DNA of 27,140 bases. Origin: a virus. The notes under the pieces are model-generated. The model was not told where the DNA came from, did not search any database, and saw only the letters and a list, made by a program, of their open reading frames with translations. The DNA lies in IMG/VR virus record IMGVR_UViG_3300030390_001642, positions 1-27,140 of that record. One strand, given 5' to 3'. This document shows, piece by piece, positions 9,642-26,861 of the stretch (the stretch's first letter is position 1; each line of letters begins with the position of its first letter). Made by a program: the position numbers and the translations under genes.

Positions 9642-12600
9642 ATGGCAGAAATCAAGAATAGTTTTCTAAGATCCAAGATGAATAAAGACTTGGATGATAG
9701 ATTAATACCTAACGGTGAATATAGAGATGCGCAGAATATATCTGTAGGTAAATCAGAAGATGATGATATTGGTGCGTTAGAAAACGTTTTAGGTAACTCT
9801 TTAGTTCAACAATTACCCGATGGTTCACAACTATTAACATACAACAATCAAACTGTAGCTGTTAATGGAGCTGGTAATTCTATTACTATAGCAGGTAATT
9901 TAACAGGTAAAATTTTACCAGGTATGAACGTTACAGGTGTAGATTCTGCAACTGGTTTAGCTTTTGCCAACATAATAACTACAGTAACTTTTGCCAATAA
10001 TCAAACAACTTTAGGTACAGTGTATGATACTCAAACAACTTCTGTTGGAGATAAAATAAATGCTTTTTTTCCTTTGGAAATTATAGGTCAATATACTGAT
10101 AAAACAAAAGATAGAATAATATTATTTTTAACAAATAAAGATGTTAATCAAACTTGGCCTCCTAATATAAATAATTACTACAATACTATTACAAATGCTT
10201 ATAACTACATACTTTCTTACACTCCAACAATAGGCATTCAAACAATAGCTTCAGGAGCTTTTTTAAATTTTTCTATAAATCAACCTATAACTGGTGTAAC
10301 AATGATTGAAGAAATGTTGTTTTTTACAGACGACTTTAATCAACCAAGACAATTAAACGTAGACAAAGGTATTGCTACGCCTACATACTATAGCAACGAA
10401 GATCATATTTCAGTTGCTAAATACGCGCCTTTTACACCACCTAGTCTAGTAAGAGAAACTAGTGGAGTTGTACAAGGTACTATAAGTGGAAGCGCTGCGG
10501 CAGGTTATGAAATACAAGTTCCAGCAAATTCAGCTATAACAAAAGGTATGTCGGTTGTTAGCAGGGTTACAACTGGTAATTCACCTAGAATAACTGGTAA
10601 TGATTTTATATACGTAGCAATAGATCCAACAACGGCGGGTGGAGTTACAACGGTAACTTTATCTCCAGCCACAGCTCAAACTTCACCAATACCAGCACCG
10701 TTAGTAGGTGATATAGTTACTTTTTTAAGCTCAACTATGACTAACCAATCTCAAACTGCTAATTGGCCTGGTGATCCAGATTTTTTAGAAGATAGATTTG
10801 TAAGGTTTAGTTACAGGTTTAAGTATGATGATAATGAATATTCTTTAATGGCACCTTTTAGTCAAATAGCTTTTGTTCCTATGCAGAAAGGTTATTTTTT
10901 TAATGGTGATGAAGATGATGCTTATCAAAGTACTGTTGTAACATGGATGGAAAATTTTATACAACAAATACAATTATTAATTCCTCTTCCAACTAATGCA
11001 ACTAGCTTATCTAATAGTTATAAAGTTTCTGAAATTGACATATTGTATAAAGAATCAGATGCTATAGCTGTTAAAGTTGTAGAAACAATAGACGTTACTC
11101 AAATTGGCGGTGCAATAAATACAAATAATACTAGGCCAATATTTTATGGTGATGGTTCTTATTTACCAGGCTCTACATTAGTTTATACTTATCAATCAAC
11201 AAAACCTTACAAAACTTTACCAGAAGCAGACACTACAAGAGTATATGATAAAGTGCCTGTAAAAGCTTTAACACAAGAATCAGCAGGTAATAGAATAATT
11301 TATGGTAATTACTTTGATAAACATACTCCTCCTTCCTCAATTAATTATAACGTTGCTTTTGTAAATAAAGATTCTAACCTACAAAACAATTGGATAGAAT
11401 ATCCTAATCATTCTGTTAAACAAAATAGAAACTATCAAGTTGGTTTTGTTTTAGCAGATAGATATGGTAGACAATCACCCGTTATATTGTCTTCGGTTCA
11501 AGAGGTGGTTTTATCTAACTATGTAGGTTCTACTGTTTATGCTCCTTATGAAGATTCAGCCTTTGATGTTAAAGGGTGGTTTGGCAAAGCTTTACAGGTA
11601 ATAGTAAATGATACTATTAAATCTTCTGTTGATCTTGATGGAGCTGGAGCTCCAGGTTTATACAACTCAACATTAGGTGCGGCTTATAATCCATTGGGTT
11701 GGTATTCTTATAAAGTTGTAGTAAGACAACAAGAACAAGATTATTACAACGTATATCTTCCTGGTATATTAAATGGTTATCCTTTGCAAATATCTACAGC
11801 CTCTGTAACTGGTGTTACAACTCAAACATATAATGCAAATTCAGTTTTAATTCAATTAAGTTCTAGTCCTAATATATCTGTAGGAAATACAATAACAAAT
11901 TCTGGAGGCACAGAAATAGCAAGTGTTACAGGAATTACTCAAAATGGCACTGGATCTTTATTAGATGTTACACCAATAATAAACTCTGTGCTTTCTGGAG
12001 CTACTTTAACTTTTAAAAATCCTAAAACATTTATACCTTTTCCAGTTGGAGAAACAAATAAAACAGCAAATATAGTGTTGTTTAACGATAATATAAATAA
12101 AGTACCAAGAGATTTAGCTGAAGTTGGTCCAGAGCAAAAACAGTTTAGAAGTTCTGTTCAATTGTTTGGTAGAGTTGAAAATCAAATAAATAGTGGCACT
12201 ACGTTTAACAGACAGTTTTATGGAACACCTCCAGACAATGCAAGAGCTTCTCATACTGTAGTTTCTATTGGAGAAGCTGAAGATTTAAATATAGTTTATG
12301 ACGAACTATCTAGCCCAGGTGGTCAACAAAACTTTTATCAAATAGATACAAATCCTTTAATAGGAAGAGTATCAACACCTTTCCCTATTGGAGTTATATC
12401 TACAACAAATGTTGCTACAAATATGCAACCGTTTTTAGCTGTATACGAAACTGAACCCGTAGAGTCTTTGTTAGATATTTTTTGGGAAACAGCAACAACT
12501 GGTTTAATTTCTGAATTAAACACAGCGGCTCTTGTAGATAATACAAACCCTAGTTTTTTTACTAACACTAGTTATTCTCAATTTGAAAATCAACAAGCTA

Positions 12601-14531
12601 ATGGAATTGTAGGTACGTCAGTAGGCGCGGTAAGCGCTGGGGCAGTACAAATTACATTATCAGCTGCTAATTCTAATATAGTCGGAACAATGGAAGTTTA
12701 CAATGCAGCTGGAGATAGAGTTGGTAACGTAGTTTCTGTTGTGGGAGCAGTTATAAACATTACAGCGGCTCAAAGTGCTATTAGCGCAGGAGCTCTTGTT
12801 ACTTTTTATAGTGCCGCGGCTGGTAATCAATACAGTAGATATGTAACAGATTTCTTTTGGCCATCTACAGCTTCAGGCGTAAACATAACTAATGCAGCTT
12901 TAGTTTTAACAAATGTTGTTACGCAGGCTGGTGTTGCAGATTCTAGATTTGCTTTATATGGTCCTGGTACCGTAGCACGTGATGGCGTTGGAAATGTTGG
13001 CGCATATAGATTAATGATAATAAATTCTAATTTTTCGTTTTTATTTAATTCTTTAGCGTCAACTAATGCTAGAGATAAATATATATTTACAATCGCTGTT
13101 ACACCTAGCGGAAGCACAACTACAACTTTAACTACAAACGGTAGTTTAAGTAATATTGCTCCTGTAGTAACAAACATTGCAACTTCTGCTTTAACAACTG
13201 ACACAACTCTTATAGATTACAAAGGACTTAATAGAGTTACAAATGGAAGTGTTGATACGTCTCAATATAAAAACGATTTAAAATTTACATTAGGAACAGT
13301 TACGCCAACACCTGCTGGTGGATTTTCTATTTTACCATATAGTGGAGTTTTATCTCAAACAGCTAACACTAATACACAGGGAACTTATACTTTGCCTATA
13401 ACAGTTGAAGATGCCGTTAACACAAGCACTGGATCTCAAGCTTTAAATGGTTTAGATACTTTAATAAATCAGCAAATAACTATAGGTGCTCAACAAGTTA
13501 ATGCTACTGCTATTGGACCAGTCCAATGTGTATCAGACGTAGTTTTACCTTGGTCTGATTCTAATTTAAAAACTGATTTAGCTGTAAAAGCAGAAGGATT
13601 ATTTAGTGATGGCAGTTCAGCTCCATATGATATAACGGCTGTTTGGTATGTAGCAGACAGTAATTTAGCTAATAGCGATTTACCTATAACGCCGGATATG
13701 CCTAGTGGCTTTACACCTTATAGGGTAGGAACTGGAGCACACATTACGGGTGATATAGCATTTTTATTAAATGCTAGAATAGAAAAAGTAAGTTCTATAT
13801 CAAATAACCCTAGATCATCATTAACTTGGAGGATGTGGAGAAGACCTGTAGGTGGAGCGGTTGGTGATTGGACTGAAGGTTTTTCAGACATAAACGGTAT
13901 TACAGCTAGTAGCGGTGTTGCTATTGCATTTAATTCTACTTATGGAGCTTCATCAGGGGAAACAATGTATAACCAAGTAGTAAAAGCTTTTGCTAGAGGA
14001 GCAGGTTCTGATAACTTTGAATACTGTATTGCTGCTGTTAATATGGGTAATACAATGACTGGAGGTAATGCTAAAGAAACTATTGTAGCTTGGGTAAGAT
14101 CTACTGATCTAAACTATCCAGCTTGTGTAGTAGAAAATGGTTCTACTGTAGTAAATTCATATAGTGGTTCAACATATTATGGCTACAGACACGTTGGTGG
14201 CGGCACGCTGCCTTACACTTGTGGTACAAGTACTCAAGGACCTTTATATTCTCCAATACCATATGGTGAATATATTAATCAGTTTTTTACTAATACAGCA
14301 AGAACAACGGTTTGGACTCCTGTAAATTATAATACATCTACACCAGTATACAGGTGGAATACATACACAGACAGCTCACCTACAATTAAACCTTTTACCA
14401 GTTTAGTTTTATCTGGAACATTTACATCAAGCGATGGAGCTGTTTACAGAGCTGGTGCAACACCACATGTATATAGTTGTTGGCCTGGAAATGCGGTAGC
14501 TACAACCATACAAAGGCAAGGTAAGAGTTAA
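9642..14531 (+). CDS. Giant modular tail protein (hub plus receptor-contact region)
   Basis: This 1629-residue protein begins with NKDLDDRLIPNGEYRDA near residue 14, a signature I recall from large tail/stabilisation proteins of marine podoviruses. The N-terminal half has tail-hub-like blocks (RFVRFSYRFKYDDNEYSLMA, then NRIIYGNYFDKHTPP and YQVGFVLADRYGRQSP) suggesting a beta-rich hub that binds the connectors. Four beta-modules interrupt it at about residues 72-143, 274-364, 719-793 and 987-1061. Residues ~1170-1286 resemble a cadherin/Ig-like domain (APVVTN ... ITVEDA). The C-terminal ~350 residues are Gly/Thr/Tyr-rich with YGEYINQFF at 1541 and PVYRWNTYTD, fibre-like features fitting receptor contact. 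No signal peptide or membrane segment is seen. It lies between connector and second tail genes. Exact role (hub, nozzle or fibre) is inferred. Confidence 0.65.
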   Translation: MAEIKNSFLRSKMNKDLDDRLIPNGEYRDAQNISVGKSEDDDIGALENVLGNSLVQQLPDGSQLLTYNNQTVAVNGAGNSITIAGNLTGKILPGMNVTGVDSATGLAFANIITTVTFANNQTTLGTVYDTQTTSVGDKINAFFPLEIIGQYTDKTKDRIILFLTNKDVNQTWPPNINNYYNTITNAYNYILSYTPTIGIQTIASGAFLNFSINQPITGVTMIEEMLFFTDDFNQPRQLNVDKGIATPTYYSNEDHISVAKYAPFTPPSLVRETSGVVQGTISGSAAAGYEIQVPANSAITKGMSVVSRVTTGNSPRITGNDFIYVAIDPTTAGGVTTVTLSPATAQTSPIPAPLVGDIVTFLSSTMTNQSQTANWPGDPDFLEDRFVRFSYRFKYDDNEYSLMAPFSQIAFVPMQKGYFFNGDEDDAYQSTVVTWMENFIQQIQLLIPLPTNATSLSNSYKVSEIDILYKESDAIAVKVVETIDVTQIGGAINTNNTRPIFYGDGSYLPGSTLVYTYQSTKPYKTLPEADTTRVYDKVPVKALTQESAGNRIIYGNYFDKHTPPSSINYNVAFVNKDSNLQNNWIEYPNHSVKQNRNYQVGFVLADRYGRQSPVILSSVQEVVLSNYVGSTVYAPYEDSAFDVKGWFGKALQVIVNDTIKSSVDLDGAGAPGLYNSTLGAAYNPLGWYSYKVVVRQQEQDYYNVYLPGILNGYPLQISTASVTGVTTQTYNANSVLIQLSSSPNISVGNTITNSGGTEIASVTGITQNGTGSLLDVTPIINSVLSGATLTFKNPKTFIPFPVGETNKTANIVLFNDNINKVPRDLAEVGPEQKQFRSSVQLFGRVENQINSGTTFNRQFYGTPPDNARASHTVVSIGEAEDLNIVYDELSSPGGQQNFYQIDTNPLIGRVSTPFPIGVISTTNVATNMQPFLAVYETEPVESLLDIFWETATTGLISELNTAALVDNTNPSFFTNTSYSQFENQQANGIVGTSVGAVSAGAVQITLSAANSNIVGTMEVYNAAGDRVGNVVSVVGAVINITAAQSAISAGALVTFYSAAAGNQYSRYVTDFFWPSTASGVNITNAALVLTNVVTQAGVADSRFALYGPGTVARDGVGNVGAYRLMIINSNFSFLFNSLASTNARDKYIFTIAVTPSGSTTTTLTTNGSLSNIAPVVTNIATSALTTDTTLIDYKGLNRVTNGSVDTSQYKNDLKFTLGTVTPTPAGGFSILPYSGVLSQTANTNTQGTYTLPITVEDAVNTSTGSQALNGLDTLINQQITIGAQQVNATAIGPVQCVSDVVLPWSDSNLKTDLAVKAEGLFSDGSSAPYDITAVWYVADSNLANSDLPITPDMPSGFTPYRVGTGAHITGDIAFLLNARIEKVSSISNNPRSSLTWRMWRRPVGGAVGDWTEGFSDINGITASSGVAIAFNSTYGASSGETMYNQVVKAFARGAGSDNFEYCIAAVNMGNTMTGGNAKETIVAWVRSTDLNYPACVVENGSTVVNSYSGSTYYGYRHVGGGTLPYTCGTSTQGPLYSPIPYGEYINQFFTNTARTTVWTPVNYNTSTPVYRWNTYTDSSPTIKPFTSLVLSGTFTSSDGAVYRAGATPHVYSCWPGNAVATTIQRQGKS
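9855..10070 (+). repeat. Beta-module copy 2
   Basis: Residues ~72-143 of the giant tail protein. Pattern seen: NSITIAG, then a G-K-I-x-P-G-M-N-V turn, a hairpin, TTVTF, and a closing G-D-K-I strand. It sits near the N-terminus between the signature motif and the first hub-like block. Confidence 0.45.
10461..10735 (+). repeat. Beta-module copy 3
   Basis: Residues ~274-364 of the giant tail protein. Pattern seen: YEIQVPANSAITKGMSVVS, a longer loop than in other copies, TTVTLSPAT, and closing G-D-I-V-T-F. It directly precedes the hub-like block with RFVRFSYRFKYDD, as if inserted at a loop of that domain. Confidence 0.45.
11797..12020 (+). repeat. Beta-module copy 4
   Basis: Residues ~719-793 of the giant tail protein. 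Pattern seen: VLIQLSSSPNISVGNTI, a Gly-rich hairpin with EIASVTGI, and closing SGATLTF. It follows the block YYNVYLPGILNGYP. Confidence 0.45.
12601..12825 (+). repeat. Beta-module copy 5
   Basis: Residues ~987-1061 of the giant tail protein, the clearest copy. Pattern seen: VQITLSAANSNIVGTMEVYN, GDRVGNVVSVVG, INITAAQSAISAGALVTFYS. Codons here are visibly richer in G and C than the surrounding gene, a possible sign of separate history. Confidence 0.5.
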
Positions 14532-14553: not shown

Positions 14554-16038
14554 ATGGCGGCAACACTTGAATTAAAATATTTTAACACTTTTTGGCTTAA
14601 AAAAGTAGCTAGCATAACTGCTCAAGCAACACCACCAGCTATAGGTGCGCAGTATGGTAATACTACTTATTCAGGTGTTCCGCAAAATTATGCTGCTGAC
14701 AATGCAAAAGATTGGTACATAGAAGAGTCTAGAATACGTGGTGGATATAATAACACAATAACTGATCTTGGTGTTAAAGCATATGTAGTAGAAGATAACC
14801 CTAATCAACAACATTTGTTTTCATCATTAATATACTCAGGAGTATTTAATTCAAGAACAGGTGTTAATGATACAAATGAATTTTCTGTTGGTCAAGATAT
14901 AACTAAAACTGTAGATCCAGTTAATGGATCTATACAAAGACTATATGCGGAAGACACTAACTTAATTATATTTCAAGAAGATAAAGTAAGTAGAGCTTTA
15001 ATAGATAAAGATGCTATATATTCTGCTGAAGGTAATGCTGTTGTAACAACTAGCCCGTTAGTTATTGGCCAAATTGTAGCTTACGCGGGTGAGTATGGAA
15101 TATCAAAAGATCTTTTTAGTTTTGCAGTATATGGTTATAGAAAATATTTTACAGACAGAAAACGTAACTGTATTTGTAGATTATCAAGAGATGGTATAAC
15201 AGAAATATCTAGTTACGGTATGCATGATTTTTTTAGAGATGAACTATCTAATCTTGCTAATGCTAAAATTGTAGCAGGTTTTGATATACACACTAAAAAC
15301 TATACTGTCTCTATACAAGAGCCAGTTAGTTCTGAATTTCCATATAGACCTAATCAAAAACAAGTAAGTAGTGGTAATAGCCCAGCTTGGAAAATAGCAG
15401 ATCGAAGTATTCCAAGCTCTTCAAAATACAGCACAGCATCATTTGACGAATCTGTATTAGGTTGGACTAGCTTTTATTCATATAGCCCAATGTTTTACAC
15501 GGTTGTAAATTCTAGTTTTTATACAGCTTTTAATGGTGGATTATGGTTACATCACACTTTAGGTAATCAAACTAAATATTCAAATTTTTATGGAATTAGT
15601 TATAATTCTGATGTAACATTAATATTAAATTCAAACCCATCTGTTGTTAAAAACTTTAAAACATTAAATTATGAAGGTAGCGATGGTTGGGCTACTGATA
15701 TAATTACTACAAGTTCTGGAGACGCAGCGTTACCTATAGCTAAATATGTTGCTATAAATAATTACAATGCTTTAGAAAATAATATGTTTGCTAACAACTT
15801 TAAACGAAAAGAAAATAAGTTTTTTGCAAATTTATTACAAGATATAGGTGGACAACCCGCAAAATTAGCTGGTACAGATATTGTTGTTCCTCAATCTGGT
15901 GAAATATTATGGGGCTTTGAAGTAAGTGGTTTAAAAGGATTTTTTAGCACCATAAAAATAAAAACAATTAACAGTGTAGAATCTGGCAAAAAAGAATTAT
16001 TTGCAGTTTCGTCTACAATAGTAGAATCATCATATTAA
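14554..16038 (+). CDS. Tail protein, probable hub/needle component
   Basis: This 494-residue protein opens with NTFWLKKVAS and soon has DWYIEESRIRGGYNN, followed by GVKAYVVEDN and IYSGVFNSRTGVN. I recall this set from a tail protein conserved across marine and some crAss-like podoviruses, but its precise place in the virion is not known to me. The middle is strand-rich (NLIIFQEDKVSRALIDKD; GEYGISKDLFSFAVYGYRKY; RLSRDGITEISSYG), which could be a beta-propeller like P22 gp10 tail hub. The C-terminus also looks like beta structure (EILWGFEVSGLKGFFSTIKI). It follows the giant tail protein by 22 bases and precedes the internal proteins by 11. Together with its upstream neighbour it may form the tail tip. 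The initiation codon lies after GATAATAAACT with no Shine-Dalgarno site. Confidence 0.62.
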   Translation: MAATLELKYFNTFWLKKVASITAQATPPAIGAQYGNTTYSGVPQNYAADNAKDWYIEESRIRGGYNNTITDLGVKAYVVEDNPNQQHLFSSLIYSGVFNSRTGVNDTNEFSVGQDITKTVDPVNGSIQRLYAEDTNLIIFQEDKVSRALIDKDAIYSAEGNAVVTTSPLVIGQIVAYAGEYGISKDLFSFAVYGYRKYFTDRKRNCICRLSRDGITEISSYGMHDFFRDELSNLANAKIVAGFDIHTKNYTVSIQEPVSSEFPYRPNQKQVSSGNSPAWKIADRSIPSSSKYSTASFDESVLGWTSFYSYSPMFYTVVNSSFYTAFNGGLWLHHTLGNQTKYSNFYGISYNSDVTLILNSNPSVVKNFKTLNYEGSDGWATDIITTSSGDAALPIAKYVAINNYNALENNMFANNFKRKENKFFANLLQDIGGQPAKLAGTDIVVPQSGEILWGFEVSGLKGFFSTIKIKTINSVESGKKELFAVSSTIVESSY

Positions 16039-18614: not shown

Positions 18615-21600
18615 ATGACAGATTATACAATAAATGGTGTAGCTTATACTGAAGATACACTAAAAACTGAAGCTGAAAAAAGAGGTTTAGATTTAGAAAC
18701 TTACAAGTCTAAACTTAAAAAAAAGCATGGTGAAAATTTTCAAAACGATCCTGCGGCTGCGGAGACAAGTGTAGGATCAAAAACAAATACGGTCTCCAAA
18801 TCGGATCCTGGTTCTTCGGATTTACCAAAAATTCCTAAACAAATTGGAACAGAATTAGACGGTGTTACTTTAGATGATATAAAAAAAAATACTAAAGAAG
18901 CAGAAAAAATAAAAACAGACAATATATATAATAAAATAGGATCAAATGCTTTTGCAGGAACAGTAGAAGAAAAAGTTGAAATATTTAATTCTTTTGGAAA
19001 ACAACCTAAACTAGTTGAGGCGGGTGTTCCTGGTTTTGTTGAAACAAAAATACAAAATGAAGATTTTTTAGATGGTTTTAACTTAATAGAATTTCAAAAT
19101 AGATGGGTTTCTGAAACGGGAGAAGCTACAAAAAACAATGCAATTAATCAAGGCATAGATGTAAACAAGCAGGCAAAAGATAATGGTATAATATTCCTTA
19201 ACAAAAATGACAAAGCTGTTAGAAACTTAGAAATTAATTTAAAAGGTGCTAATAAAAGAGGTGACGTTGAAATGGCTAAAGACCTTGAAATAAAGCTAGC
19301 TGAAGCAAGAACAAAAGTTAACGCTGGTTCTAGACTTTATGATCCTGTTACTGGTAGTTTTGAAAATTTAGAAAAATTATCTCCTCAAGGACAAAAAATA
19401 GAACAAGATGCAAATGTATTATCTATAGCGAGTGATTTAAATTCTTTAGAAGAAATGAGAACTAAAGAATATTATGAACTTATAGCGCTGTCTAAAGAAG
19501 CTTTAAATAGATTTGAATCAATAGGTAAAGAAAGAACTGGTGTAGAAAAATTAATAGGACCAATAAGAGGTTTGTTTACGGAAGACACTTATGGTTTTGA
19601 TAAAGAAGTGTTACAACAAATTGCTAACACAGAAACTTTACCTGAAAACATAACTTCATTACCAGGTGAGCATCCTATAGCTTTAGCTTTTAATGCAAAA
19701 TTAAATAAATATACTACTTTAAATAGAGCTATAGAATTAAATAGTGATCCTGTAACAACAGAAAGAACAAATGAGTTAACTAAAAATTTAAATAGGTTTG
19801 TAAAAAACGTAAGTAATAGAGATGTGTTAGGTTCTGAAGACACCGATGCTGCTGTTAATATATTTAAAGAAATAGTTAATGAAAATGGCGTTGGTTATGC
19901 GGATCAAATGATGGTTGATACCAGAAGTAAAACGACAATAACTGATGCTATTTTAGGTATGACAGTTGATTTAGCTCCTTTAATAGCCACGGTAGTAGTT
20001 GCTAAAAAAGCACCTGGCTATGCTCAAGCTGAAAAAGGATTAGCTAATTTAAGTAATTTTTTAAAGCAAGTTGGTCCAAAAAGCAGCGCTTACAGAGGAT
20101 TAATTAATACTACTTTTGGTTTAGGCACTGGTTCTAGTGCTGTAAAAGAAATGGCCACTCTAGGCGCAGCAGACGAAATAGGTGCTGTTCTTATTGGAGC
20201 AGAAGCTGTAGATCCAGTTTTTGCCGCATCTTTAGGTGCTGGTCAATCGCTAGCTCAACAAGGTATGGGTAAATTAGTTGAAAAAAGACTTGAAGGAAAG
20301 CTTAAATTTATTACTCCAGTATTAGCGGCTTTAAATAAAAGTAAAGGTGCTACAAAATATATTCAAGGGGTTCAAGGCGCTACAATAGGTACTGCAACTA
20401 TGGTTGTTGCTGAGGGTGTTTCTTTGCAATATAATTCTTTAATGGAAGAAGGAAAATTTGCAGAAGCCGAAGAATTATTAGAACTAGGAACTCCGTTTCA
20501 TTTAGCTGAAACATATTACTCTTTAAGATTAGTTGGTTTGGCAGGAAGTGGTTTAACTAAAGCTATTGGAAAAGATATTTTAGCTTTAAAAAATCAAACC
20601 ACTGAAACTAACGCGGCGGCTAAACTTTTAAATATTTCTAAAAATGTTAGCAAAGAATTAACACCTACTTACAATGTTGAAGGAAGTATTATTGGTGCTA
20701 AAAAAATTAATAGAATACAAGAAATAGAGCAAGCAGAGCAGTTGGCTTTAGAAAAATTGAAAAAAGAATACATGCCTAAGGGTGAAGGAAGTTCTGAAAC
20801 TTTTGCAGATGGATCGTACGTAAAAAAAGTTAAAGAAATAAGAGACGCGGCACAAACTTTAAAAACACAATATAATTTAGTATTAGATCAAGATCAAGTT
20901 AAAAGAGATGAAGACAACGCGGCTTCTAATACTGAGCTTTATGTAACTACAGAAAGATTAAAACGTGGGTCAAAGCTGGACACAAAAGATTTAGAAACTA
21001 TAGCAAAAACTCCAGAATCAATTTTACTGGATCAAATGGGAGCTGGTAATAATTTAGTAATAAAGGAAAATATAAAAAAAGTAACAAAATATGCTAACGA
21101 AATATTAAATGTTGTAGATTCTCAAGGTTTTAAAGGTGAAAGCAAGCAAAGAACAAGAGCTATTAAACTTTTACAAGACTATGCTACAACAGGCTCTAAA
21201 ATAAAAAGCTTAGAAAATCAACTTAAAAGTCAGCCAAATCTTAGACCTGTATTAGAGAGAGAAATAGAATTTCAAAAAAATAAAAACGAAAAAACATTAG
21301 AAGATTATAATTCTAATTTAAAAGAAAGTCAAGATTTAGCTGGAAAAGAAATAAGCGAAACAAAAGATGTTTTTGAAAGAGCTGGTATTAAAAACACGAT
21401 AGAGTTAAATGCTACAGAATTTCAAAAGAAAGTTAATGAACTGGAGCCGGGAAAAGATGCTTCATCTACTAGCGGTGTTATTGATAGAGCTACAGGTGAA
21501 CTGTACATTAACGCACCTTTTTCTAAAACAATGCAATCTCGTGGTGTTACTGTACACGAACAAACGCATAACATTGTAAAAGAATCATTAAGAGGTAAAG

Positions 21601-24600
21601 ATGGTAAAATAACAAAAGAAGGCTTACAAGTTATTAATCAGTTTAGAGAAGGTTTAAACCCTACTGAAAAAAAATTAATTGATCAAAGGATAAATGAAAA
21701 TTATAAGTTTGATGAAAACGGTAAAGAAAGACCATACGAGGAGTATGCTGAGGAATACGTAACTGTTTTTGGAGATTTAATTAGAGATAAAAGAATTAAA
21801 TTTAAAAATAAAATAGAAGCTACAGACGCTAGTAGCATAAAGTCTGGTGCAGAGCTTAAAAATTTAATTAGAAGAATAAATGAAGAAGTTGATAAAGGTA
21901 AGTTAAGTCAAGATGTAATTGACGCGGCAAACAAAAAACAAGCTGGCGAAGGGATTGATCAATCAAGAGACATTGCAAAAATTAAAACTCTTGAAACAGA
22001 GTTTAGAGATGTTAAAAAAGCTGAAAAAAGTAGAAAAGAATCATTTCTTAAAAGAGCTAAAGAAATTGAAAAAGATCAACCAGAAGTAGCTAAACGAATG
22101 AGAGAAAAAGTTGACGAGATGTCTAACAAAGAAGGTGCTTTAGTAAGAAAAATTGCTAAAGAATATTCTACTTCTATTAAAGCTATTGTTAGGAAAAATC
22201 CTAGTGTTTTAGATACTCCAACATATGAAAATTTTACATCTACAGAGGCTAAATTAGATGCTATAGTAGAGCAAACTATGCCTGAACTTATTAAACATAT
22301 TAATAATTTTAAAGATTTTAATACTAATTTAGATGCTTATATAAATAGTTATTTAGTTAAAAAAATTGGTACAGCTACAAGTAAAAAAGGTTTTAGAAAA
22401 GAAGAATTTACTAGTAGGTTAGATAATGAAGCTTTTAAAATTGCTGCAGAAATAGATGGACCAATTGAAATAATAAAAAGTGAACAATCTGAATTTAAGA
22501 AAACTATAAAACCTACTAATGAACAAAGGGTGGATATATTACAAAAATCAGTTGATGTTCTTGTAAAAAACTTAAACAAAATAGACGCTAATGTTAAAGG
22601 ACAACCTAGACCTTTTTATACAAATGCAAAAAAACAAGTTGAAAAAGAATTATTTAAATTAGTAAAAAATAGATTAAACACATTAAACCCTAAAGGTTAT
22701 AGAGCTTTAATGAATACTAAACAGGGCGTTGAATCTGTTTTAGCTATAGATCTATTAACAATGACTAATTCTTTAAAAGGCGGCAAAGGAGGATTTGATT
22801 TATTTTTAGAACCTGTGCTAAAACTTGACGGTACGCAAGAAAGATATAGTAAAGAAGAAGCAAATAAACTAGGTATTCCATATGAAAAAGCTGGTTCAGG
22901 ACCTTTAAAATACAAAAAAAGATCTATTAATGATTTTATAAAAGACGGTGAAGTTACCAAAGAATTTACTGATTGGGTGTTAGACAAAAATAATGCTAAA
23001 CCTAGAATTGACGGTAAAAAAGATGCTATTGCAAAAGCATTGGCCGGAAATTTAGGGCTAGATGCTATGATGGGTGGAGTTAAAACTCCTGTTTTTGAAA
23101 TTAAAAAAAATGAATATGTAGATCTTTTAAAAAATGCTACACCAGAACAAAAAGTTTTAATAAAAACAGATGCTTTTTTAAGTAAACTATCTGATAAAAT
23201 AACAAGAAATCAAAATATAAGTTTTAGTGTTAGAAAACAGACTGAAAAATTTATGTCTCAGTTAGAAAAATTAACTAATGATCAAAGCAGAATAGAATTA
23301 TTTGAATCTCAAAATGGTACGTTAAAAGATATTTTTAATAGAATTATTCCAGGAGGTGTTGTTAATACAATAAAAGAAATAGATAAAACTAGATTAAAGC
23401 TTGAATCTGAAGCTGCAGATCGTATAACGAGAGAAGAAGGAATTCCTTACAGCGAAGCCATTTTAAGAGTAAACCAAGAAATAAAAAATTATTCTAGTTT
23501 AAGAAAAAATAAAAAAACTGTTCAACTTCCAAATGATCCAGTGATTCAAAAAAGAATTTTACAAGGTTTAATTCCAAAAGGAATGAAACTAGGAGATTTA
23601 TCAAAAGATGTGCAACAGCAAATATATAGTGAAATGCAAGGTGGAAACACTAGGTTTATAATTGATGGTAGAAAACTTACATATTTAGATTTTGCAACAG
23701 AGTTAAAAGCTAAGCTTAAAAAAGAAGGAAGAGATTCAACAACTCCTATGGCAAAAAATAATCCTGCACCTAAAGAGTCTACCTATGCTGACTTATTTGA
23801 GGTTGCTTATGGTAAAGATGCTACTATAGGTACTAAACCTATGGGTAAAAACAAAGACGGATCAGTTAAAAGTATAGATGGAGCTAAATTTTATTCTAAT
23901 TGGGGTGGTATAAGTAGACAATTTGAAAGCATTATAAATAAAAATCTTAAAGAATATGGTGATACCTCTAAAGCTAGATTAGAAACAAAAAAAGAAATAG
24001 AAAATTACATGGCAAAAGAAGGTTTTACTATTGATCAAACTATAGCTGCTAATAGAGTTATGTTAGAAAGAAAGTATGATGTGCTTATTGATATGTTTAT
24101 AGAAAAACCTACAACTAAAATGTTAGGTAAAATTATTGATGCATTACAACCTTTAACAAATCAAGCTACTTCTATTTCTAAAGGAAATATTCCAATGACA
24201 TTAGTTAATATGTTTAGCGAGGTTGGACCAAAATATAATTCTAAAGGCAAAGAATTAAAACAAGAAAAAATTAGACACAACGAACATTTGTTAGAGTTTT
24301 TTCAAATGAATAGTAGGTTTGTTGATTTATTAGATAATTATAAAAATAAAAAAATTAATAAAACTCAACTAAGAGAGCAAACGGTAAATCTTTTAAGACA
24401 AGCAGAACAAGCTAGCACCTCAGAGTTTCAAAGATATAATAAAGATAAAACTGGACCTTCTACTTCAGACGCTTTAAGTACTATAGAATTTTTATTTAAA
24501 AAAAATAAAGCTAAAGATGTTATTACTATTGGAAGTTCTAGGGAAGGATCAAATTTAGCTGAATCAGTTTCTAAAACATTAAATCCAAAACAAAGACAAA

Positions 24601-26861
24601 TTGTTAAAAACACACCTAATTCTAAACTTACTACAGAAGGGGTAATGGTAAAACAAAGAGTGGTAAATGTAAAAGAATATGAAAAAGTAAAAATTAATAA
24701 TGAAAAAATAGCTAAAAAAGCTGGTGTTTCGTATTCAGATTCTAAAAAAATGAATCAAGGAGAATTGTTTGAAACATTAAAAAATATAGATAAAAATAAT
24801 GCTGAAAAAATTAACAATAAGTTTAGTGAAAAAGATTTATCTAAAGAATTTAATAATATATTAGAACAATCTAGTGGTGTTGAAAGTGTTAAAGAGTTTT
24901 CTGATATTAGAGCTAAAACCACAGGTAGAAACAAAAGAAAATGGCAGTTATTTATACCAGATTCTGCAGCTGATTTAAATGGTCTTATAGATGTTACATT
25001 AGGTAAAGGTAAAACAGGTGATGCACAAAGAAAATGGTACAAAGAAAATATTATAGATCCATTTAATAAAGCTGAAGATGCTTTAGTTAGAGATAGAGTA
25101 GCTTTAACATCTGGTTTTAAAGCTTTAAAAAAGCAATTAAAAGTTGTGCCAAAAGATTTAAGAAAAGAAGCTATAGAAGGTTTTACATTTGAGCAAGCTA
25201 TTAGAGTTCACACATGGAATAAACAAGGTATGAAGGTAGAAGGTTTATCTAAAAGAGATCTTAAAGAGTTAAGTGAAATAATAGAAAAAAACCCTGAATT
25301 AAATGCTTTTTCAGAACAGTTAATAGAGCTTGGTAAAGGCGAAGGTTATCCTGCTCCACCTAAAGACTGGTTAGCTGGTAGTATATCAACAGATCTTAGA
25401 ACTGGATTAAATAGAGGAGGTAGAGCTAAATATTTAGAGGCTACAGGTTATACTGAAAATATAGGTAAAATATATTCTAAAGAAAATTTAAATAAATTAG
25501 AAGCTTTGTACGGTAATAAATACAGAGTAGCTTTAGAAAATATGTTAGGCAGAATGAGGACGGGTATTAACAGAAAACCTTCAGCAAACGCTTTAGAAAA
25601 TAGAGCTCTTGATTGGATTAATAACGCTAATGGTGTTACAATGTTTTTAAATGCTAGATCTGCAGTGCTTCAAACAATATCATCTTTAAACTATATTAAC
25701 TGGACAGATAACAACCCATTAAAAGCTGGTAAAGCTTTAGCTAACCAACCTCAGTATTGGAAAGATTTCATGGAAATAATGAATTCTGACTACTTAGTTG
25801 ACAGGCGTAATGGCTTAAAATTAAATGTTAGTGAATCAGAAATAGCTGATGCAGCTAAGTCTTCTACTAATAGTGCTAAAGGTGCAATAAGCTATTTATT
25901 ATCTAAAGGTTTTTTATTTACAAGAATAGCAGATAGTTTTGCTATTGCTTCAGGTGGTTCTACATTTTATAGAAATAGAATAAATACTTATAAAAAACAA
26001 GGTTTAAGTGAGGCTCAAGCAAAAGAAAAAGCTTTTAAAGATTTTAAAGAAATATCAGAAGTTTCTCAGCAATCAGCTAATGTAACTAAAATTAGCATGG
26101 AACAATCAAGTTCATTAGGTAGATTAGTTTTAGCTTTCGCTAACACGCCTATGCAATACGCTCGATTACAAAAAAGTGCTATAAAAGATTTAGCTAATGG
26201 TAGAGGTGATTATAAAACTAATTTTTCTAAAGTAATGTATTATGGTTTTGTTCAAAACTTAATGTTTAATGCTTTACAAAATGCTTTGTTTACTAATATA
26301 TGGGAAGACAATCCTGATCCTATAAAAGAAGACATGAAAAAAGCTAGAATAGCAAATGGTATGGCTGATTCTATATTAAGAGGTATGGGTATTGGTGGAG
26401 CAGCTTTTTCTACTATAAAAAATGTAATGCTTAAAGTTAAATCAGAGTCTGAAAAATCAAGACCTGATTATAATAAAGCAGCTTCAGAAGTTTTTGATTT
26501 TATTCCACCTATAGATACTAAAATTAGAAAACTAAGAAACACAGCTACTTCATTTAAATACGATATAGATGATATGCGAAATATGAGTTTAACAGATATT
26601 GATAATCCTGTTTATTTAGCTGGTGCAAATGTTATATCAGCTGCTACTAATTTTCCTGCTGATAGAATAATTAGAAAAACACAAAATATGAAAGGTGTTT
26701 TAACTGATGAAATGGAAATGTGGCAACGTATAGCAAGGTTTGCTGGATGGAGTGAATGGGAAATTGGACCAAACAATGAAAGCAGTAAGCCGTTTAAATT
26801 ATTAAAACCACCGGTACTAAAAATTAGAAAACCAAAATTATTAAAACCTCCTAAAATATAA
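18615..26861 (+). CDS. Giant internal/ejected virion protein with a HEXXH motif
   Basis: This 2748-residue protein fills about 30% of the window. The N-terminus (YTINGVAYTEDTLKTEAEKR) resembles a short motif I recall at the start of large Bacteroidota-phage virion proteins. Residues ~441-465, 523-551, 585-606 and 633-652 are hydrophobic and could meet membrane. Coiled-coil-like helices span ~837-915 and ~1118-1194. Between them, SGVIDRATGELYIN then VHEQTH (H981, E982, H985), with acids at 1042-1047, looks like a zinc protease. The rest to ~2420 is mostly Lys/Glu-rich helix. The C-terminal ~330 residues carry hydrophobic segments (~2424-2455, 2502-2521 with AFANTPMQYARL, 2537-2563, 2582-2606). 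Its place as third internal gene matches T7 gp16, but no lysozyme-type transglycosylase motif is evident. It may cross or open the cell envelope in infection. No frameshift is seen. Confidence 0.75.
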   Translation: MTDYTINGVAYTEDTLKTEAEKRGLDLETYKSKLKKKHGENFQNDPAAAETSVGSKTNTVSKSDPGSSDLPKIPKQIGTELDGVTLDDIKKNTKEAEKIKTDNIYNKIGSNAFAGTVEEKVEIFNSFGKQPKLVEAGVPGFVETKIQNEDFLDGFNLIEFQNRWVSETGEATKNNAINQGIDVNKQAKDNGIIFLNKNDKAVRNLEINLKGANKRGDVEMAKDLEIKLAEARTKVNAGSRLYDPVTGSFENLEKLSPQGQKIEQDANVLSIASDLNSLEEMRTKEYYELIALSKEALNRFESIGKERTGVEKLIGPIRGLFTEDTYGFDKEVLQQIANTETLPENITSLPGEHPIALAFNAKLNKYTTLNRAIELNSDPVTTERTNELTKNLNRFVKNVSNRDVLGSEDTDAAVNIFKEIVNENGVGYADQMMVDTRSKTTITDAILGMTVDLAPLIATVVVAKKAPGYAQAEKGLANLSNFLKQVGPKSSAYRGLINTTFGLGTGSSAVKEMATLGAADEIGAVLIGAEAVDPVFAASLGAGQSLAQQGMGKLVEKRLEGKLKFITPVLAALNKSKGATKYIQGVQGATIGTATMVVAEGVSLQYNSLMEEGKFAEAEELLELGTPFHLAETYYSLRLVGLAGSGLTKAIGKDILALKNQTTETNAAAKLLNISKNVSKELTPTYNVEGSIIGAKKINRIQEIEQAEQLALEKLKKEYMPKGEGSSETFADGSYVKKVKEIRDAAQTLKTQYNLVLDQDQVKRDEDNAASNTELYVTTERLKRGSKLDTKDLETIAKTPESILLDQMGAGNNLVIKENIKKVTKYANEILNVVDSQGFKGESKQRTRAIKLLQDYATTGSKIKSLENQLKSQPNLRPVLEREIEFQKNKNEKTLEDYNSNLKESQDLAGKEISETKDVFERAGIKNTIELNATEFQKKVNELEPGKDASSTSGVIDRATGELYINAPFSKTMQSRGVTVHEQTHNIVKESLRGKDGKITKEGLQVINQFREGLNPTEKKLIDQRINENYKFDENGKERPYEEYAEEYVTVFGDLIRDKRIKFKNKIEATDASSIKSGAELKNLIRRINEEVDKGKLSQDVIDAANKKQAGEGIDQSRDIAKIKTLETEFRDVKKAEKSRKESFLKRAKEIEKDQPEVAKRMREKVDEMSNKEGALVRKIAKEYSTSIKAIVRKNPSVLDTPTYENFTSTEAKLDAIVEQTMPELIKHINNFKDFNTNLDAYINSYLVKKIGTATSKKGFRKEEFTSRLDNEAFKIAAEIDGPIEIIKSEQSEFKKTIKPTNEQRVDILQKSVDVLVKNLNKIDANVKGQPRPFYTNAKKQVEKELFKLVKNRLNTLNPKGYRALMNTKQGVESVLAIDLLTMTNSLKGGKGGFDLFLEPVLKLDGTQERYSKEEANKLGIPYEKAGSGPLKYKKRSINDFIKDGEVTKEFTDWVLDKNNAKPRIDGKKDAIAKALAGNLGLDAMMGGVKTPVFEIKKNEYVDLLKNATPEQKVLIKTDAFLSKLSDKITRNQNISFSVRKQTEKFMSQLEKLTNDQSRIELFESQNGTLKDIFNRIIPGGVVNTIKEIDKTRLKLESEAADRITREEGIPYSEAILRVNQEIKNYSSLRKNKKTVQLPNDPVIQKRILQGLIPKGMKLGDLSKDVQQQIYSEMQGGNTRFIIDGRKLTYLDFATELKAKLKKEGRDSTTPMAKNNPAPKESTYADLFEVAYGKDATIGTKPMGKNKDGSVKSIDGAKFYSNWGGISRQFESIINKNLKEYGDTSKARLETKKEIENYMAKEGFTIDQTIAANRVMLERKYDVLIDMFIEKPTTKMLGKIIDALQPLTNQATSISKGNIPMTLVNMFSEVGPKYNSKGKELKQEKIRHNEHLLEFFQMNSRFVDLLDNYKNKKINKTQLREQTVNLLRQAEQASTSEFQRYNKDKTGPSTSDALSTIEFLFKKNKAKDVITIGSSREGSNLAESVSKTLNPKQRQIVKNTPNSKLTTEGVMVKQRVVNVKEYEKVKINNEKIAKKAGVSYSDSKKMNQGELFETLKNIDKNNAEKINNKFSEKDLSKEFNNILEQSSGVESVKEFSDIRAKTTGRNKRKWQLFIPDSAADLNGLIDVTLGKGKTGDAQRKWYKENIIDPFNKAEDALVRDRVALTSGFKALKKQLKVVPKDLRKEAIEGFTFEQAIRVHTWNKQGMKVEGLSKRDLKELSEIIEKNPELNAFSEQLIELGKGEGYPAPPKDWLAGSISTDLRTGLNRGGRAKYLEATGYTENIGKIYSKENLNKLEALYGNKYRVALENMLGRMRTGINRKPSANALENRALDWINNANGVTMFLNARSAVLQTISSLNYINWTDNNPLKAGKALANQPQYWKDFMEIMNSDYLVDRRNGLKLNVSESEIADAAKSSTNSAKGAISYLLSKGFLFTRIADSFAIASGGSTFYRNRINTYKKQGLSEAQAKEKAFKDFKEISEVSQQSANVTKISMEQSSSLGRLVLAFANTPMQYARLQKSAIKDLANGRGDYKTNFSKVMYYGFVQNLMFNALQNALFTNIWEDNPDPIKEDMKKARIANGMADSILRGMGIGGAAFSTIKNVMLKVKSESEKSRPDYNKAASEVFDFIPPIDTKIRKLRNTATSFKYDIDDMRNMSLTDIDNPVYLAGANVISAATNFPADRIIRKTQNMKGVLTDEMEMWQRIARFAGWSEWEIGPNNESSKPFKLLKPPVLKIRKPKLLKPPKI
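21555..21569 (+). other. HEXXH zinc-protease-like motif in the giant protein
   Basis: Codons for H981-E-Q-T-H985. The motif is preceded by a strand ending in LYINA and followed by helix NIVKE, as in zincins; candidate third ligands are E1042, E1043, E1046 and E1047 in PYEEYAEEY. Fold and activity are inferred. Confidence 0.6.

Follow-up and report, generated by a model that had tools for sequence, protein, structure and literature searches.

A predicted zincin-like metallopeptidase domain in the variable middle of a giant, putatively ejected virion protein of a marine crAss-like phage

The window analyzed here (the whole stretch of DNA under study, 27.1 kb of the 27.5-kb IMG/VR virus record IMGVR_UViG_3300030390_001642) stems from a marine crAss-like phage that probably injects a giant protein into its bacterial host. 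Its genes follow the order terminase, portal, scaffold-like protein, capsid, several structural proteins, muzzle (two open reading frames, ORFs), two cargo-like proteins of 255 and 588 amino acids (aa) and a giant protein of 2748 aa, which is encoded at 18615..26861 on the plus strand. An earlier note on this DNA had proposed that the giant is an ejected virion protein carrying a zinc protease of the gluzincin type at the motif HEQTH. The motif is indeed present at residues 981-985 of the 2748-aa ORF (21555..21569) and is the sole HEXXH across the main ORFs of the window; with 9 histidines in the giant, about 0.0025 occurrences of HEXXH would be expected by chance. It lies in a predicted zincin-like metallopeptidase (MPTase) domain of residues ~915-1059 (21357..21791), which was delineated by an alignment of 76 members, an AlphaFold2 model and an hhalign comparison with the MPTase family of phage N4.

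Upstream of the motif, the segment GVIDRATGELYIN (residues 954-966, 21474..21512), described previously as strand-like, was modelled as a beta-hairpin with the two strands GVID (954-957) and ELYIN (962-966) preceding the active-site helix, and all 76 sequences have G or A at position 954. The acidic PYEEYAEEY stretch, to which the earlier note had also pointed, is located at residues 1040-1048 and includes E1047 (21753..21755), 62 residues past H985, within a helix of residues 1041-1057. This residue is Glu in 75/75 aligned sequences, and the consensus around it reads EE-x-x-T-x-F-S-E/D. Judging from conservation and the model, H981, H985 and E1047 are the most likely zinc ligands and E982 the most likely general base. 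The combination of HEXXH and a downstream Glu ligand that marks gluzincins (MEROPS clan MA) is found, on conservation and predicted fold, in H981, E982, H985 and E1047. The term gluzincin applies only in so far as the third ligand is probably a Glu; around E1047 the alignment consensus lacks the NExxSD signature of thermolysin-type enzymes, and a thermolysin-type identity was rejected.

The AlphaFold2 model, built from 76 sequences, reached a mean pLDDT (predicted local distance difference test) of 84.5, with most of the core above 90. It comprises a strand (927-931), a helix (933-943), the two strands of the hairpin, the HEQTH helix (977-992) and the later helix with E1047. The modelled order strand-helix-strand-strand-HEXXH helix-Glu helix corresponds to a minimal zincin topology, and the model agrees with the core of polyvalent-protein MPTases as given in PMC5512222. 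When viral models were searched with Foldseek, the top match was a protein of an uncultured virus (E 1e-7), with giant proteins of podoviruses in the next ranks, one of them annotated as a large polyvalent protein.

To assess conservation, relatives had to be reached via capsid, portal and C-terminal domain, because DNA and tblastn searches with the giant against 50,697 phage records gave zero matches. Around 160 loci were gathered by capsid and C-terminal-domain searches, longer pieces were fetched for 18 records, and 83 long giants were compared after removal of duplicates. Exactly one HEXXH was found in 74/83 giants, as against ~0.004 expected per giant by chance, and none in 9/83. HEXXXH, a variant recorded for polyvalent MPTases (PMC5512222), occurs in 2/83 (L103 and L148), so that HEXX(X)H is retained in 76/83 giants of a set that was not selected for the motif. 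Loss of HEXXH in close homologues, named beforehand as a sign against the protease, is thus confined to a minority. In four giants (L153, L154, L165 and L173) the domain carries Glu in place of the first zinc-ligand His (EELFH or EEIFH) and keeps the downstream Glu helix; these represent either pseudo-enzymes or an altered metal site. No domain was detectable in three giants (L119, L120 and L089).

In a 15-row full-length alignment, only H981, E982, H985 and E1047 were listed as invariant or nearly so between residues 647 and 1278; the corresponding 15-row domain alignment was too divergent to serve as a seed for the collection scan. The same four residues form the least variable columns of the 76-row domain alignment, followed by Y1030 (63/65), G954 (G/A), E1046 and D1054 (D/E in 74/76). 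As the 76 rows were selected by HEXX(X)H, H981, E982 and H985 are fixed by construction, whereas E1047, D/E1054 and Y1030 are not; the rate of 76/83 is unaffected by this selection. The 76 domains are only ~18% identical to that of the window; the active-site residues have been kept in most relatives while the surrounding sequence changed almost beyond recognition.

A Pfam scan of the whole window protein and of the isolated domain returned no peptidase match, and the window domain had no match to Peptidase M78 (ImmA/IrrE) or SprT. Among the 76 members, the commonest families with weak Pfam matches were the zincins Peptidase_M78 (7 members, best E 0.00026) and SprT-like (6 members, best E 0.0093). 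An N4-type MPTase profile was then assembled from 68 domains of a viral-contig scan, and hhalign aligned the domain to it with a probability of 90 (P 1.7e-6), HEXXH and the preceding strands being in register; as an unrelated control, the C-terminal domain of the giant gave 0.1 with this query. Comparison with the zincin family of crAss001 gp47 yielded a P of 1.5e-5, and probabilities of 95 and 84 were obtained for Flavobacterium phage elemoF gp18 and a Manatee Spring podovirus giant, respectively. The features of polyvalent-protein MPTases are accordingly present: the first C-terminal helix bears HEXXH or HEXXXH and the second a conserved Glu, sequence homology was detected, and the large multidomain protein (2748 aa) is encoded in the late gene block, after terminase, portal, capsid and muzzle. 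Residue conservation, the modelled topology and homology at profile level strongly support a zincin-type metallopeptidase with intact HEXXH and downstream Glu, and residues ~915-1059 very probably constitute such a domain of the phage polyvalent-protein class with an intact active site. By profile comparison, the window domain belongs to the polyvalent-protein zincin-like MPTases described by Iyer et al. (2017), in a divergent clade that is not recognized by Pfam. Proteolytic activity is largely a prediction for the known members of this class, too.

The MPTase of the N4 virion RNA polymerase (vRNAP) gp50 (residues 2130-2448; PMC5512222) is likewise part of a giant virion protein delivered with the DNA. 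Both share a three-strand core, a HEXXH helix, a later Glu helix, profile homology in register and a large region after the domain, and HEXXXH variants also occur among polyvalent-protein MPTases. In contrast to gp50, the window giant is without an RNA polymerase domain, carries the peptidase at one third of its length, and Pfam is blind to this peptidase; furthermore, its host group is probably Bacteroidota and most family members show the low identity to the window given above. An N4-type polymerase identity of the giant was rejected, as it has no vRNAP Pfam match whereas N4 gp50 matches strongly. crAss001 gp47, a virion cargo protein annotated as RNA polymerase subunit, shares with the window giant its place after a stabilization/muzzle gene and two cargo genes, and also a domain with HEAFH at residues 2157-2161 (L187:27588-27602) followed by an EENMAEGF helix. 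Its zincin, however, lies near the C-terminus (2157 of 2341), and the remainder shows no detectable homology to the window giant. The HEAFH of gp47 is conserved in the giants of the gut Crassvirales cr112_1, cr85_1 and cr55_1, and reads HESFH in cr108_1. The elemoF gp18 (3694 aa, annotated 'structural protein') and the Manatee Spring giant (3859 aa) are positional equivalents from related phages with the same domain (33.6 and 19.1 bits with the profile of the 76-row alignment), but their C-terminal domain is not recognisably homologous to that of the window. The latter (MW202828.1; L181:741-12320; annotated 'reticulocyte binding/rhoptry protein') further differs in having two HEFGH motifs, both in zincin-like settings. 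T7 gp16, another large protein from inside the virion, likewise leaves the particle before the DNA, yet it carries an N-terminal lytic transglycosylase rather than a peptidase, and the window giant has no Pfam transglycosylase match. The predicted peptidase would therefore be a different enzymatic cargo relative to T7 gp16, as had been suggested, although peptidases in injected giant phage proteins were already described in 2017 (PMC5512222).

The giant was placed as a cargo or ejection protein on the basis of synteny. The gene order of the window is the same in crAss001 and the gut crAss phage cr55_1. The succession of muzzle, two cargo-like genes and giant also occurs in crAss001 and in cultured flavophages, where the corresponding proteins bear the annotation structural or virion protein. 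In crAss001, gp47 occupies the position of the window giant and was detected in virions by mass spectrometry (PMC10172136); virion proteomics of cultured equivalents was also sought in PMC13288928, the text of which does not contain phi38:1 gp101. By this analogy, the peptidase-bearing giant is probably packaged within the phage head and ejected before the DNA, so that its earlier description as an ejected virion protein gains support and keeps the status of an inference. Comparison of portal proteins identified Flavobacterium elemo phages, Maribacter Panino, and Cellulophaga and Tenacibaculum podoviruses as the closest cultured phages. Because a scan of genome contigs matched metagenome-assembled contigs only, the host group had to be deduced, and it is probably Bacteroidota.

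The giant combines conserved ends with an exchangeable middle. The C-terminal domain (residues 2040-2720, 24732..26774) has many invariant columns and 40-51% identity to the window across 13 relatives, and these C-terminal 680 aa are common to hundreds of environmental phages. By analogy with the C-terminus of N4 vRNAP (PMC5512222), it is a candidate packaging or ejection module. The N-terminal end (~150 aa, 18615..19064) is semi-conserved among giants with unrelated middles, as seen in L106 and L107, where residues 1-155 match (45%). The ~1,900 residues in between are not conserved, and for the median pair of giants a BLAST match spans only 13% of the middle. In L106 and L107, the C-terminal thirds are 92% identical while the ~1,900-residue middles show no detectable match; conversely, the first 1,150 residues of L107 and L167 are 66% identical compared with 51% for the C-terminus. 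These identity patterns indicate that the middle of the giant is exchanged wholesale by recombination between related phages. An exchange of the peptidase alone was rejected, since in L106 versus L107 the entire middle differs. The peptidase-type domain is the most constant feature found in the middle, being present in 80/83 giants compared with 57 for a HAD-like DxDxT motif and 19 for a confident sigma-like segment.

From what is directly supported, namely the domain, its conserved residues, its predicted topology and the variable-middle architecture, we infer zinc binding, catalysis, timing and substrate as follows. The conserved ends of the giant would mediate its packaging and ejection; the protein would pass the tail in a partly unfolded state and refold in the envelope or cytoplasm. 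H981, H985 and E1047 would then bind zinc, E982 would activate water, and the domain would cut the giant so that pieces of the variable middle, the conserved C-terminal third, or both are set free. A self-processing role was proposed for the polyvalent MPTase class by Iyer et al. (PMC5512222). Self-cleavage after ejection is favored here because the peptidase persists while neighboring domains change, as expected of a processing device, and this retention in an otherwise variable middle favors self-processing over cleavage of host proteins as far as the comparison of sequences goes. We regard an injected giant with a built-in zincin peptidase that cuts the giant itself after ejection as the best overall explanation, with somewhat better than even prospects; that the giant is the substrate, taken by itself, falls slightly short of an even chance.

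Several observations weigh against this explanation. Although a zincin topology was modelled with a confident core, Foldseek searches of the PDB with two models gave zero significant matches; the best rows include the zincins collagenase T, ColH (clostridial collagenases), anthrax lethal factor and selecase, every one with E >1 and hence suggestive only, and a hidden Markov model search of PDB sequences returned noise only. Masking the motif in both profiles left the N4 alignment in register but weakened it to a P of 0.0014. The four giants with Glu for the first His and the three without a detectable domain imply that the peptidase is not strictly essential. Protease activity and zinc binding of the domain are predictions from sequence and model, and no cleavage site was identified in the giant. 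Moreover, N4 vRNAP is packaged without processing although its HEXXH domain is retained (PMC5512222), and the purified full-length enzyme is reported to show no evidence of degradation (PMC12633501). For this reason self-cleavage, if real, may have to await entry or a trigger.

Alternatively, the peptidase might be an injected effector that cuts one or more host proteins of the envelope, defence or transcription after delivery, its fast sequence change tracking host targets. Outside its fixed catalytic residues the domain is divergent (pairwise identities average 21%, compared with 54% for the C-terminal domain), it is exchanged together with the middle region, and such a role is allowed by Iyer et al. 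(2017), MPTases being effectors in other conflict systems (PMC5512222). One would, however, expect more frequent loss or replacement of a host-targeted effector than is seen for this domain, which ~96% of the giants possess while their other middle domains are gained and lost, and no host substrate is known; we therefore consider this reading rather unlikely. Processing of the giant, or of scaffold or cargo neighbors, before packaging in the infected cell or procapsid would follow the proposal for phage P1 DdrB, which has a C-terminal MPTase and is cleaved before packaging (PMC5512222), and the domain could act in cis upon folding of the protein. The unprocessed packaging of N4 vRNAP with its homologous domain speaks against this, as does crAss001 gp47 at 262.5 kDa among the virion proteins (PMC10172136), a figure that may be a calculated mass, and an assembly-time protease appears improbable.

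A zincin fold whose part in the ejection protein is structural or regulatory, with or without metal, for example that of a linker joining the middle and C-terminal parts, would account for the four relatives with EELFH or EEIFH and recalls the HEXXH-containing C1 subdomain in the C-terminal region of N4 vRNAP, which is reported to inhibit the polymerase (PMC12633501). Such a module is, if anything, marginally less probable still, as all four catalytic residues are retained near-perfectly across very divergent sequences and a purely structural metal site would have no need for the general base E982. An accidental HEXXH within a helical stretch would fit the single-sequence Pfam search of the window protein, which found no peptidase; this reading was rejected as highly improbable, since it is contradicted by the low chance expectation and by the conservation of position and flanking fold in 76/83 relatives.

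crAss-like giant virion proteins have been described as channel-forming cargo or as RNA-polymerase-associated, and a peptidase in them is not mentioned in these reports (PMC10172136, PMC10136315, PMC7886860). While the kind of enzyme is already known (polyvalent-protein MPTase), its near-universal presence in this abundant environmental clade was not found described in the open-licence literature searched. As the domain of an environmental clade has counterparts in crAss001 gp47 and in the cultured elemoF, the long-standing question of the fate of a 300-kDa protein after threading through the tail can be tested in a laboratory phage. Should the domain be active, it would represent a phage enzyme at work at the moment of entry. 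A more speculative, and on balance unlikely, extension is that the near-obligatory peptidase of a giant with constant ends and exchangeable middle releases changing payload domains, among them in some lineages a sigma-70-region-2-like module able to redirect host RNA polymerase. If true, this would be a phage counterpart of proteins that self-process after delivery.

Further features were noted in the window and its relatives. The downstream muzzle ORF (14554..16038) encodes the C-terminal part of the muzzle protein (Pfam crAss_MUZ_C, 35.5 bits at a cut-off of 27). The muzzle/stabilization protein is apparently split, as the adjacent ORFs 9642-14531 and 14554-16038 match different parts of phrog_14478, a single family of 1474 residues. 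A hydropathy scan identified hydrophobic segments at residues 445-463 and 522-540 of the giant (19947..20234), which are possibly membrane-interacting and do not occur in every relative. An HAD-phosphatase-like motif (FDFDDT...TARP...) was observed in 57 giants, among them L002 and L089, mostly at a distance of ~165 aa from the start of the conserved C-terminal domain that follows it, and is missing from the window giant. In the giants of L095, L096, L100 and L090, a 'DEIETGVGGILDLISKYDPKEGTPLAAYINKYLPVRAI'-like segment located 165-255 aa past HEXXH resembles sigma-70 region 2. It had zero Pfam matches; most PDB entries that its profile matched at E ≤1 were sigma factors (best E 0.032), and 19 relatives match the profile at E<1e-3. 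Residues ~1224-1266 of the window giant (22284..22412) match it weakly at 4.6 bits. A sigma-like module delivered by a virion would, if true, be notable.

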